DNA of 64,000 nt. It comes from Streptomyces sp. HUAS ZL42. Its GTDB lineage: Bacteria; Actinomycetota; Actinomycetes; Streptomycetales; Streptomycetaceae. The stretch spans positions 3,162,001 to 3,226,000 of the forward strand of contig NZ_CP160403.1 of assembly GCF_040782645.1 (NCBI RefSeq). The letters are read 5' to 3'. Made by a program: the position numbers and the translations under genes. This document shows, piece by piece, positions 11,502 to 16,071 of this stretch (position 1 is the first letter of the stretch; each line of letters opens with the position of its first letter). Below the pieces are notes generated by a model, which saw only the letters and a list, made by a program, of their open reading frames with translations, did no database searches and had not been told where the DNA came from.

Positions 11502-11981
11502 TCAGTCCTTCTTCAGGCGCTGGGTGAGCGCCTCGAAGACCACCGGCGGCACCAGGTGGGAGACGTCTCCGCCCCAGGTCGCGACCTCCTTGACCAGGGA
11601 GGAGGAGAGGAAGCTGTAGGTGGGGTTGGTCGGGACGAAGAGCGTCTCGACACCCGAGAGGCCGTTGTTCATCTGGGCCATCTGCAGCTCGTAGTCGAAG
11701 TCGCTGACCGCGCGCAGGCCCTTCACGATGGCCGGGATGTCGCGTTCCTTGCAGTAGTCGACGAGGAGGCCGTGGAAGGACTCCACGATCACGTTGCCGT
11801 ACTCGGCGGTGACCTGGCGGATCAGGTCGATCCGCTCGTCGATCTCGAACAGGCCCTTCTTGGCCTTGTTGATCATGACCGCGACATAGACCTCGTCGTA
11901 CAGACGGGAGGCGCGGGAAATGATGTCGAGGTGTCCGTTGGTGATCGGGTCGAACGACCCGGGACAGACGGCGCGGCGCAC
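11502..11981 (-). CDS. coaD: Phosphopantetheine adenylyltransferase
   Basis: Penultimate step of coenzyme A synthesis: 4'-phosphopantetheine plus ATP gives dephospho-CoA. Length 159 residues. The nucleotidyltransferase motif CPGSFDPITNGHLD carries the (T/H)xGH-like ATP site, and YSFLSSSLVKEVA is the second nucleotide-binding motif. The GTG at 11981 is chosen over an ATG at 12011: it has GAGGGA 6 bases upstream and gives the family length, whereas the ATG would overlap rsmD. Confidence 0.96.
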   Translation of the reverse strand: MRRAVCPGSFDPITNGHLDIISRASRLYDEVYVAVMINKAKKGLFEIDERIDLIRQVTAEYGNVIVESFHGLLVDYCKERDIPAIVKGLRAVSDFDYELQMAQMNNGLSGVETLFVPTNPTYSFLSSSLVKEVATWGGDVSHLVPPVVFEALTQRLKKD

Positions 11982-12007
11982 TTGAGATCCCTCGCTCTCC
12001 GGTCCGG

Positions 12008-12592
12008 TCATCGTGCGTCTTCGCACGTAGAGGCGGCGCGACCGTACCAAAACGTCCCCTCGCCGTAGCGCCGGGCCCGGATCGCGTCGAAGCCGGGCGG
12101 CCATCTGAACTCGCCGCCTCTGGTGCTGCGCTCCACGGTGACGAGGGCTTCGCCCGCGAGCCAGCCCTCAGTGCGGAGTGTGAGCAGAATCTCCCGAAGA
12201 TCGTCGTCCGGGACGGCGTACGGGGGGTCGAGGAAGACGAGGTCGTACGGTTCGGCCGGTGGCGTCTGGATGATCTGGTGGGCCTTGCCCGCCCTGACCT
12301 CGGCGCCGGGGAGGCGGAGGCTCTTCACGTTCTCCCGGAGGGTGCGGGTCGCTCGCGCGTCGGCCTCGACGAGGAGGACGTGGCCGGCGCCGCGGGACAG
12401 GGCCTCCAGACCGACGGCGCCGGAGCCGGCGTACAGGTCCAGGACCCGCTCGCCGTCCAGGGGGCCGCCGAGGAGGGACTGCCAGGTGGAGAACAGGCCC
12501 TCGCGTGCGCGGTCGGAGGTGGGGCGAGTTCCGTTTCCCGGCGGAACGGCCAGGCGGCGTCCGCCGGCCGTGCCGGCGATCACGCGGGTCAT
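12008..12592 (-). CDS. rsmD: 16S rRNA (guanine966-N2)-methyltransferase
   Basis: Methylates G966 of 16S rRNA using S-adenosylmethionine. Length 194 residues. N-terminal IAGTAGGRRLAVPPG and RPTSDRAREGLFS are RsmD hallmarks; the SAM loop is VLDLYAGSGAVGLEAL, and the catalytic motif is FLDPPY. Lies 26 bases upstream of coaD, the near-universal rsmD-coaD pair, and downstream of recG. Confidence 0.96.
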   Translation of the reverse strand: MTRVIAGTAGGRRLAVPPGNGTRPTSDRAREGLFSTWQSLLGGPLDGERVLDLYAGSGAVGLEALSRGAGHVLLVEADARATRTLRENVKSLRLPGAEVRAGKAHQIIQTPPAEPYDLVFLDPPYAVPDDDLREILLTLRTEGWLAGEALVTVERSTRGGEFRWPPGFDAIRARRYGEGTFWYGRAASTCEDAR

Positions 12593-12665: not shown

Positions 12666-15600
12666 TCACCCCTTCTCCAAGTACTGCTCCCTCTCCTCAT
12701 CCAGCAAGGCGTCCAGCGCCGTCCGCAGGCCGGGAAGCCGGTCCAGCTCCGGATCTGCCGCGACCACCGCCGCCGCCTCCTCCCGGGCCTCCGCGATGAT
12801 CTCCTCGTCGTCGATGACGGCGAGGACCCGCAGGCTGGAGCGGGCGCCGGACTGGGCCTGGCCGAGGACGTCGCCCTCGCGGCGCTGTTCGAGGTCGATG
12901 CGGGAGAGCTCGAAGCCGTCGAGGGTGGAGGCTACGGCGTTGAGGCGCCGGCGGGCCGCGCTCGCCTCGGGCATCTCGGTGACCAGCAGGCACAGCCCGG
13001 CGGCCGAGCCACGCCCCACCCGCCCGCGCAGCTGGTGGAGCTGGGAGACGCCGAAGCGGTCCGCGTCCATGATCGCCATCACGGTGGCGTTCGGGACGTT
13101 GACGCCGACCTCGATGACGGTCGTGGCGACCAGCACGTCGGTCTCGCCGGCGGCGAAGCGGCGCATGACCGCGTCCTTGTCGTCCGGCGGCATCCGACCG
13201 TGCAGGACCTCCACCCCGATGCCGTTCAGCGGCCCCTTCGCAAGCTGGTCGGCCACGTCGAGTACGGCGAGGGGCGGGCGCTTCTCCGCCTCGTCCTCGG
13301 GGGACCTCTTCTTGGGATCCACGTCCTCGTCGCCGATGCGCGGGCAGACGACGTACGCCTGATGCCCCTTCGCGACCTCCTCGCGCACCCGCTCCCAGGC
13401 CCGGGTCAGGAAGTGGGGCTTGTCGGCGGCCGGGACGACATGGCTGGCGATCGGTGAGCGGCCGGCGGGGAGCTGGTCGAGGACGGAGGTCTCCAGGTCA
13501 CCGAAGACGGTCATGGCCACGGTCCGCGGAATGGGCGTGGCGGTCATGACGAGCAGATGCGGCGGCTGCTTGCCCTTGCCCCGCAGGGCGTCGCGCTGCT
13601 CGACGCCGAACCGGTGCTGCTCGTCCACGACGACCAGACCCAGGTCGTGGAACTGCACCTTGTCCTCGATCAACGCGTGCGTACCGATCACGATCCCGGC
13701 CTCGCCGGTGACCAGATCGAGCAGCGCCTGCCGCCGGGCCGCGGCGCCCATGGACCCGGTGAGCAGCACCACCTTGGTGGCCTGCTCGGCCCCGCCCAGC
13801 ATCCCGCCCTCGGCCAGCTCGCCCATCATCTCGACGATCGACCGGTGGTGCTGCTGGGCGAGCACCTCGGTGGGCGCGAGCATGGCGGCCTGCCCACCGG
13901 CGTCGACCACGGCGAGCATGGCGCGCAGGGCCACCATCGTGTTGTGGGTCACCGTGAAGTTGTCGGTGACGTAGGCATGGCTGGGGTGCGCGACGCTGAT
14001 GCATTGGGCCGGCTTCCGCCCCACATACTCCACAGCCCGGATTCCGCGCCGGAAAGCGTCGTACTTCGGCCGCGGACGTACCCGTTGCGCCTTGCGGGCG
14101 AGCCGGAAGGGTGCGTACTCGTCGGGCAGTGCCACCGAGACGTTGAAGGCGGACCTCTTCCTCTTGGGCAGCACACGCGCCCGGCCACCCAGCGACCGCA
14201 CGAGCCATGCGACGTCGTCCGCAAGCCTGCGCGAGGCCGAGCACAGAGAAATGGCCATTCCGTCCCGGTGAACGGTGCCATCGATGTCCAGGAGTCCTTG
14301 AAGGAGAGCCAGACGGTTCTTGATCGACGTGTTCTTGAACTCGACAGGGATGAATGTGTCGTGTGAGGTCAAGCCCCACAGGCCCAGATCCCGCAGGGTC
14401 TGGATGATCGGATTGCGCATGCCGCCCGAACGATGAGTCAGCTGGATCGTGAAGTCGCACCGAGAGCCCGTCACCGGGACAACGCGACAGTCGGGGGCCA
14501 CGAAAGCCTCCACCGCGTCGCGGATCTCGGCATCGATGGTGGACAGCCGCAGGTTGTGCCGGAACGAGCCGTCTCCGAGCAGCAGGCCGAACAGGTAGGG
14601 GTCGAGCGGAAGCCCTGAATCGTCTCCGAGGTCGACAGGAGTCGCAGCCGGGAGGTACCACTTCGACGATCCACTGGCTTTGAACAGGTCGTGCCGGATT
14701 TCCCGTGTGGTCAGCACCTTGGGCTGCTGACCGCGATGCCGGCCACCACTCGTGCCTACGATCCAAAGGTGTTCGTCGTCGCATTCCACGGAGCTTCCGT
14801 CGGAGAGCACGATGCGCCACACATCGCGCTCACCTTGCGGAAAGACTCCGTCCACCAGAGCGATCTCTCCGGCGGGAACGACAATCTCGTCTCCCACCCG
14901 CATATCCCCCATGGGGCGAAAACCCGACGGCGTCAGAACGAGCGAGTCCAACGGCTGAGCCTTCCCCGAACCCACCTCCCCCTGCAGCAACCGGTGCATC
15001 GGATGCTCCGTCGCAAGGTCGTCGAAGATCTCCTTGGAGACCTTTTGCTGGCCCTCGGTGAGGGTGAAGGGGAGGCGGTCGTCGAAGGCCGTCAGGAGGC
15101 CGTGCGGCTTGGGTTTGCGGGCGACCGCCGGGAGTTGGGCGTCGGCGTGGCGGCGGCGGGCGAGGGCGATCTGGAGGACGAAGGCCTCGTCCCACTTGAG
15201 GCGGTCGCGGGCGTCGGAGATGTCCGCCTTGGTGTGCGGGCGGTGGATCTTGAGGAGGGCCTCGGGGAGGGAGACCAGGCCGCGGCCCTCGCGGAGGGAG
15301 CCGGGCAGCGGGTCGACGGCCTCCTGGGCGCTGGGCAGGACCGTCTGGACGGCCTTGCCGATCTTCCAGGACTCCAGTTTGGCGGTGGCCGGGTAGATGG
15401 GGATCAGGGCGCCCGCCCAGGTCTCGACGGCTTCCTCGGTGTCGCCGCGCAGCAACTCGTACGCCGGGTGCGCCAGTTGGAGGCGGCGGTTGAAGACGGA
15501 GACCTTGCCCGCGAACATCGCGCGTGTGCCCGGCAGCAGCTCCTTGTGGGGCTTGTGGACGCCGTGGCCGAAGAAGACCAGTTGGAGACGGCCGCTGCCG

Positions 15601-15881
15601 TCGGTGATGGTGACTTCGAGGCGCTGGCCCTTGCCGCGGGGCGCCTTGGACGAGGCGAAGGTGTGCAGTCGGGCGTCGGCGACCTGGGCGACCACCGTGA
15701 CGTGTTCGTCCATGGGGAGGTCGGCGAGGTGCGTGAGCTGGCCCCGCTCCTCGTATCTGCGCGGGTAGTGGTGGAGGAGATCGCCGACGGTGTGCAGGCC
15801 GAGGTGCTCGGCCATCACCTTCGCGGTGGCGGGGCCGAGCACCTTCTTCAGTGGTTCTTCCAGTGCGGGCACGAGATCCAT
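12666..15881 (-). CDS. recG: ATP-dependent DNA helicase RecG containing an intein
   Basis: Branched-DNA helicase that reverses stalled replication forks. The precursor is 1071 residues: N-extein 1-307, intein 308-647, C-extein 648-1071, giving a 731-residue mature helicase. The wedge/OB part includes VADARLHTFAS. The Walker A is GEVGSGK, interrupted by the intein, then T. Later motifs are VVVDEQHRFGV (DExH), MTATPIPRT, GRMPPDDKD and RGRVGRG. The ATG at 15881 (MDLVPALEEPLKK) is chosen over 15935 on family similarity. Since the split lies in Walker A, ATPase activity must depend on splicing. Starts 190 bases from the divergent Hsp90-like gene. Confidence 0.97.
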   Translation of the reverse strand: MDLVPALEEPLKKVLGPATAKVMAEHLGLHTVGDLLHHYPRRYEERGQLTHLADLPMDEHVTVVAQVADARLHTFASSKAPRGKGQRLEVTITDGSGRLQLVFFGHGVHKPHKELLPGTRAMFAGKVSVFNRRLQLAHPAYELLRGDTEEAVETWAGALIPIYPATAKLESWKIGKAVQTVLPSAQEAVDPLPGSLREGRGLVSLPEALLKIHRPHTKADISDARDRLKWDEAFVLQIALARRRHADAQLPAVARKPKPHGLLTAFDDRLPFTLTEGQQKVSKEIFDDLATEHPMHRLLQGEVGSGKAQPLDSLVLTPSGFRPMGDMRVGDEIVVPAGEIALVDGVFPQGERDVWRIVLSDGSSVECDDEHLWIVGTSGGRHRGQQPKVLTTREIRHDLFKASGSSKWYLPAATPVDLGDDSGLPLDPYLFGLLLGDGSFRHNLRLSTIDAEIRDAVEAFVAPDCRVVPVTGSRCDFTIQLTHRSGGMRNPIIQTLRDLGLWGLTSHDTFIPVEFKNTSIKNRLALLQGLLDIDGTVHRDGMAISLCSASRRLADDVAWLVRSLGGRARVLPKRKRSAFNVSVALPDEYAPFRLARKAQRVRPRPKYDAFRRGIRAVEYVGRKPAQCISVAHPSHAYVTDNFTVTHNTMVALRAMLAVVDAGGQAAMLAPTEVLAQQHHRSIVEMMGELAEGGMLGGAEQATKVVLLTGSMGAAARRQALLDLVTGEAGIVIGTHALIEDKVQFHDLGLVVVDEQHRFGVEQRDALRGKGKQPPHLLVMTATPIPRTVAMTVFGDLETSVLDQLPAGRSPIASHVVPAADKPHFLTRAWERVREEVAKGHQAYVVCPRIGDEDVDPKKRSPEDEAEKRPPLAVLDVADQLAKGPLNGIGVEVLHGRMPPDDKDAVMRRFAAGETDVLVATTVIEVGVNVPNATVMAIMDADRFGVSQLHQLRGRVGRGSAAGLCLLVTEMPEASAARRRLNAVASTLDGFELSRIDLEQRREGDVLGQAQSGARSSLRVLAVIDDEEIIAEAREEAAAVVAADPELDRLPGLRTALDALLDEEREQYLEKG
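13941..14960 (-). mobile_element. Class 3 intein with LAGLIDADG endonuclease in RecG
   Basis: In-frame insertion of 340 codons directly after the Walker A lysine of RecG, before its Thr. Splicing block A reads AQPLDSLVLTPSG, so residue 1 is Ala instead of Cys or Ser. Block B ends CDDEHLWIV with the His and Trp66; block F reads PAQCISVAHP with Cys at the position of the usual Asp; block G is NFTVTHN followed by Thr+1. Trp (B:12), Cys (F:4) and Thr (G:5) form the triad that defines class 3 inteins, which use the F-block Cys in place of an N-terminal nucleophile. The centre has two dodecapeptide motifs, LFGLLLGDGS and LLQGLLDIDGT, with both catalytic Asp residues kept, so the homing endonuclease looks intact. 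Confidence 0.93.
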
Positions 15882-16071
15882 TGCACACCACGGCACTGAC
15901 AATCCCGTAGAGGTCCGGGCACCCGCGCTGGACAAGTCTCGGGAAATTCCTGGTCAGACGGGCTGTTCGGGCTCTAGGATGACGCGCTCCGGCCATCCCC
16001 CGCGGTCACCGCCCCACCGGGACCGCCCGACCCCGCGCCGTCGAACGTTCCCCACCCACGGCGCCGTGACG

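Follow-up and report, generated by a model that had tools for sequence, protein, structure and literature searches.

What kind of element interrupts the ATP loop of the helicase gene recG on the chromosome of Streptomyces sp. HUAS ZL42, and how does it persist there? The gene lies in a stretch of 64,000 nucleotides (contig NZ_CP160403.1, positions 3,162,001 to 3,226,000), here called the window. The insert in recG is a real intein. It is very probably a bipartite class 3 intein with a likely intact LAGLIDADG homing endonuclease, seated in the Walker A loop of a chromosomal RecG.

The recG insert and its class

The insert comprises 1020 nucleotides (340 amino acids, aa) in frame with both RecG exteins and occupies the Lys/Thr bond of the Walker A loop (...GEVGSGK / TMVALR...). 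The exteins match the NCBIfam RecG equivalog NF008167 with 1126.3 bits (cut-off 995), and the host gene is chromosomal and single-copy. Since the same bond is occupied in 108 other distinct RecG inteins and empty in most of the sampled congeners (164 of 196), the insert is far beyond chance. The first-pass annotation of this DNA, made from the letters alone, had named this exact site with Thr as the +1 residue, and both points hold, the C-extein starting with TMVALR.

The splicing residues of the window intein are A1, H64, W66, C320, T338, H339, N340 and Thr +1, and these eight positions are invariant across 109 distinct RecG inteins (108 found by pattern plus the more distant copy L239; the window copy is included). 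Three further RecG inteins outside these counts also keep the signature. Residue 1 is the non-nucleophilic Ala in all 109 copies, and the triplet of Trp at B:12, Cys at F:4 and Thr at G:5 (WCT; here W66, C320 and T338) is present in all 109 as well. Class 3 inteins are defined by this triplet (PMC5222942). The predicted Hint fold resembles that of known class 3 inteins, and the mini-intein structure scoring best against the window intein is that of a class 3 intein. Signature and modelled fold together assign the window intein to class 3, as the first-pass annotation had proposed from the Trp, Cys and Thr of the triplet and the initial Ala.

By analogy with established class 3 chemistry, Cys320 would attack the Lys307-Ala bond, the N-extein would then be transferred to Thr +1, and Asn340 would cyclise while the exteins join and restore GEVGSGKT. 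Because the intein breaks the ATP loop, unspliced RecG is presumably inactive, and ATPase activity would be lost until splicing. From this the first-pass annotation had suggested that fork repair could be under conditional control.

Table 1. Features of the interrupted recG gene in the window and of a related plasmid gene
Feature	Position	Strand	Remarks
recG precursor gene	12666..15881	minus	1071 aa; ATG at 15881; predicted spliced RecG 731 aa
RecG N-extein	14961..15881	minus	307 aa, ending ...LLQGEVGSGK; NCBIfam RecG match; own-genome match, query residues 1-309
Class 3 intein (assigned by signature and fold)	13941..14960	minus	Ala1 to Asn340; structure model pLDDT 93.8
RecG C-extein and stop	12666..13940	minus	424 aa, start TMVALR (Thr +1, remainder of Walker A)
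LAGLIDADG endonuclease region	14280..14606	minus	about residues 119-227; Asp130 (block C, LLGDG), Asp227 (block E, LLDIDG); borders approximate
Block B core EHLW	14763..14774	minus	residues 63-66; His64 (B:10), Trp66 (B:12); H and W invariant, 109/109
Block F/G end CISVAHPSHAYVTDNFTVTHN	13941..14003	minus	residues 320-340; Cys320 (F:4), Thr338 (G:5), His339, Asn340; invariant 109/109
RecG-like gene with class 3 intein, Rhodococcus rhodochrous plasmid NZ_CP120357.1	L337:2603-6280		followed by two tyrosine recombinase genes

Upstream of the recG ATG the same open frame continues to a TTG at 15935. Downstream (11502-12592) lie a cytidylyltransferase-like gene, which we read as coaD-like, and a Cons_hypoth95 methyltransferase gene, which we read as rsmD-like, an ordinary housekeeping context.

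Distribution and decay

In a sample of 199 Streptomyces genomes, RecG was matched in 196; the other three (G001, G050, G099) gave no RecG, only a distant helicase. The intein is present in 32 of the 196, about one in six, with at least 330 residues in 18 of these. The remaining 164 congeners carry RecG without it, so the intein-free alleles that the first-pass annotation predicted do occur. Among the matches listed, 148 intein-free congeners have a single RecG match and six a strong match plus a second, all at E = 0, a value that the halves of an interrupted RecG do not reach. Ten congeners with split RecG matches were re-examined as possible cases of other insertions and showed only short linker gaps elsewhere. 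A named scan gave 138 relatives, and the 80 kept are all from Streptomyces recG. Beyond the genus, flanking sequences show this bond of RecG to be occupied by an intein in two other genera of the family (L225, L343) and in one genome of another class of the phylum (L239, 56% identical). Wider samples covered 394 genomes of the class and 396 of the phylum; the other non-genus matches that were read, with the weaker ones covered in part, have other hosts, mainly PhoH. The +2 codon of the P-loop is Met in 107 of 108 occupied recG genes, and Met (25) or Leu (14) in 39 empty alleles, a comparison not controlled for relatedness; the Met bias may reflect co-conversion or a site preference.

Pfam LAGLIDADG_3 matches the insert (5.6e-07), and the LAGLIDADG_3 and Hom_end matches extend to about residue 270. 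Asp130 and Asp227, which we take to be the catalytic pair, are both present in the window copy, in agreement with the first-pass annotation, and the window intein still looks able to spread. Of the 109 RecG inteins, 82 retain Asp130, 89 retain Asp227 and 74 have the two together, and 19 copies are shortened to 247-316 residues with every splicing residue retained. Over 87 full-length copies, the median pairwise ratio of nonsynonymous to synonymous substitutions (dN/dS) is lowest in the splicing part (0.087); the endonuclease has 0.153 and the nearby extein 0.145. These values are rough, as the median intein dS is about 1.05. Median GC content at third codon positions rises from 0.81 in the 89 full inteins to 0.90 in the 19 shortened ones and is 0.93 in exteins, uncorrected for relatedness; such a gradient would follow if foreign elements ameliorate with time and shed the endonuclease. 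On the favoured reading the element is selfish: the need for a working RecG maintains splicing, while the endonuclease decays once its own selection ends.

Family models mostly miss the splicing domain of these inteins, with Hint_2 below cut-off in two copies. A LAGLIDADG_3 match persists in one 302-aa RecG intein, and one 247-aa copy matched neither Pfam nor NCBIfam models, even at E up to 1; class 3 mini-inteins are thus probably under-counted.

RecG is listed among bacterial intein hosts in Table 1 of a 2018 review, where class, site and species are absent (PMC5874633), and the Lys/Thr P-loop is called a "classic" intein site (PMC5050341). Because host and site were already on record, the RecG intein is one more mobile element of a kind known before; the supposition that a chromosomal RecG intein was undescribed is not supported, the less so with about one congener in six carrying it. 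A literature search, with InBase and most subscription journals outside its coverage, found no report of a class 3 or a Streptomyces RecG intein. InBase reportedly lists a Streptomyces avermitilis RecG intein ("Sav RecG"). The contribution here lies in how large the data set is and how it is structured, in the plasmid copy, and in the shortest form being invisible to annotation models. In a single host gene and at a single site, mostly within one genus, the stages of an intein life cycle stand side by side (empty sites, intact endonuclease motifs, point losses of Asp, deletions to 247 aa with splicing residues untouched), and homing, decay and loss become countable.

Spread and alternative explanations

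Tree tests used 39 of the 75 named full-length copies, nine chosen, mostly because their distances were odd, and 30 drawn randomly. Tested with intein data, the extein tree is rejected by 1394 log-likelihood (lnL) units (approximately unbiased test, p 1.6e-13), and the intein tree fares likewise with extein data (1348). With each extein half taken separately, the intein tree is rejected by 849 and 575 units, and intein data reject the trees of the two halves by 1235 and 1296. The conflict between intein and extein is 3 to 8 times that between the extein halves. The contrast is smaller in shared splits, of which intein and extein have 5 of 36 and the two extein halves 8 of 36, and the chosen copies may inflate it. 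Distribution and tree conflict together suggest site-specific cutting of empty recG: the endonuclease would cut recG alleles that lack the intein, at their conserved P-loop codons, repair would then copy the intein into the cut allele, and the alleles may meet through plasmids or ordinary recombination.

Several observations weigh against this reading of a homing class 3 intein. In a control, the trees of the N- and C-extein also reject each other (264 and 160 lnL units), so recG recombines in the ordinary way as well, and this accounts for some of the discordance. The insert reaches the cut-off of no splicing-domain model in Pfam or NCBIfam, and the NCBIfam model for the intein N-terminus has no match anywhere in this genome. 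The intein tree described below holds WCT-type inteins only, and splicing and cutting are inferred steps.

That the insert is a sequencing or assembly artefact has a negligible probability and is rejected, as the genome is a single contig, 99.96% complete, and the 108 other distinct copies with an insert at this bond come from many assemblies. It is highly improbable that a class 1 or class 2 intein merely resembles class 3: Cys at F:4 does occur in some class 1 inteins (PMC3196547), but Ala1 is unable to form the class 1 (thio)ester, the WCT triplet is invariant and the best-scoring mini-intein structure is of class 3, and the class 1 look-alike is rejected on Ala1 and the triplet; class 2 was, as of 2011, reported only from KlbA (PMC3196547). 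An insert that no longer splices, in a strain living without RecG, would have a precedent in the dead class 3 intein of Arth_1007 (PMC3196547). All eight splicing residues are nevertheless intact here and in the 108 other copies, the frame is open with both extein halves conserved, and dN/dS is lower in the splicing part than in the endonuclease or the nearby extein, so that this explanation is very unlikely. In its favour also counts that recG can be deleted in E. coli.

The intein might instead have been co-opted as a stress switch, in which oxidation of Cys320, for instance with Cys60, slows splicing and delays fork rescue; we consider this improbable. Class 3 splicing begins on an internal Cys, as in the P-loop intein of Mycobacterium smegmatis (Msm) DnaB1, which H2O2 inhibits through a disulfide with the catalytic Cys (PMC6195587); in the RecG inteins Cys60 is kept in 106 of 109 copies and every splicing residue in the shortened ones. 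The DnaB1 partner Cys48, however, aligns to Val47 here (V in 107, I in 1 and T in 1 of 109), so the exact DnaB1 mechanism does not carry over, and a DnaB1-type toggle is rejected, its partner Cys being absent in 109/109. Control through Cys60 is possible, but this residue stands four positions ahead of the block B His and may be structural. Of the three copies that lack it, at least two are shortened (L024, L096), where a switch should persist, which lowers this explanation slightly, and patchy presence (32/196) is more in keeping with a selfish element than with a switch on which the host depends. That the intein has been domesticated in endonuclease-less lineages as a redox-sensitive delay of fork repair, through Cys320 and the near-invariant Cys60 and not through the DnaB1 pair, seems quite improbable.

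Relatives and comparison with known systems

A tree was built from 64 WCT-type inteins, a selection of those available. Its 25 RecG inteins group together (99/95); within the group, the Rhodococcus plasmid copy and then L239 lie outside the RecG inteins of Streptomycetaceae. Next to this group stands an intein in the Walker A motif of a helicase-like protein (L193; 97/80), and the deep branches are weak. On the simplest history, recG acquired a P-loop class 3 intein a single time, and homing then carried it from one recG to another. The expectation that class 3 inteins belong mostly to phage and DnaB-type helicases was too narrow, as WCT inteins occur in PhoH, in an ATPase of the type II or type IV secretion type and in helicase-like proteins; one host reads, by its flanks, as a RecA-like protein.

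In another genus of the family (L228-L231) a class 3 intein lies between TVEGN and TNDTGSTEGDGVY in a host that, judged without a family search, does not look like an ATPase. A related intein in a DarB-like gene of Mycobacterium phage Phrappuccino (L338:2501-3559) has Cys at +1, not Ser or Thr. Some WCT inteins start with Ser (PhoH L027, L028, L216 and L255; viral contig L317), and L282 from a viral contig keeps WCT with Cys at residue 1; these are possibly class 1/class 3 hybrids, and the first residue of L282 may have reverted, since it adjoins the Ala1 inteins L270 and L293 (100/100). Frames of 1447-1454 and 1711-1715 aa (L110 in genome G090, and G128:C2 about 10107000-10117500, partly L108) contain two or more intein-like matches apiece in both genomes; a single host protein may here carry several inteins.

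Viral contigs scanned with the window intein gave no relative, so no virus with the RecG intein itself; scanned with an alignment of distant inteins they gave at least 585, of which the 80 kept have at most 43% identity in the best segment. Matches in 703 phage and 42 plasmid records are all below 60% identity. A phage origin of class 3 inteins has been proposed (PMC5050341). The viral inteins resemble the RecG intein in WCT, in Ala1 in most and in THN/T, and occupy a Lys/Thr site in 20 of 20 flanks read (16 following GxGK), but have other helicase- or ATPase-like hosts and 37-45% identity in 28 aligned. The R. rhodochrous plasmid intein shares with the window intein the GSGK/T bond in a RecG-like protein, WCT and a common clade, whereas it is 46% identical and plasmid-borne, in a host whose best NCBIfam matches are RecG models, with scores below their cut-offs (at most 647.7 of 718 bits). 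A plasmid RecG that has a related intein at this bond suggests a vehicle.

The PhoH inteins of actinobacteria (L194, L204 and others) share WCT and about 40% identity with the window intein, and Ala1 in 34 of 38 read, but sit in another host at MRGR/TLND and form a separate clade. At this site of the PhoH-like ATPase a class 3 intein is frequent in actinobacteria, with 38 distinct copies (L194-L216, L232-L246). The RecG entry in Table 1 of PMC5874633 is likewise a bacterial RecG with an intein. The Msm DnaB-1 intein (6bs8) is, like the window intein, of class 3, but is a mini-intein without endonuclease in a DnaB host, with the redox Cys48 in place of Val47. PI-SceI, the yeast VMA intein, differs from the window intein in being of class 1, with Cys1.
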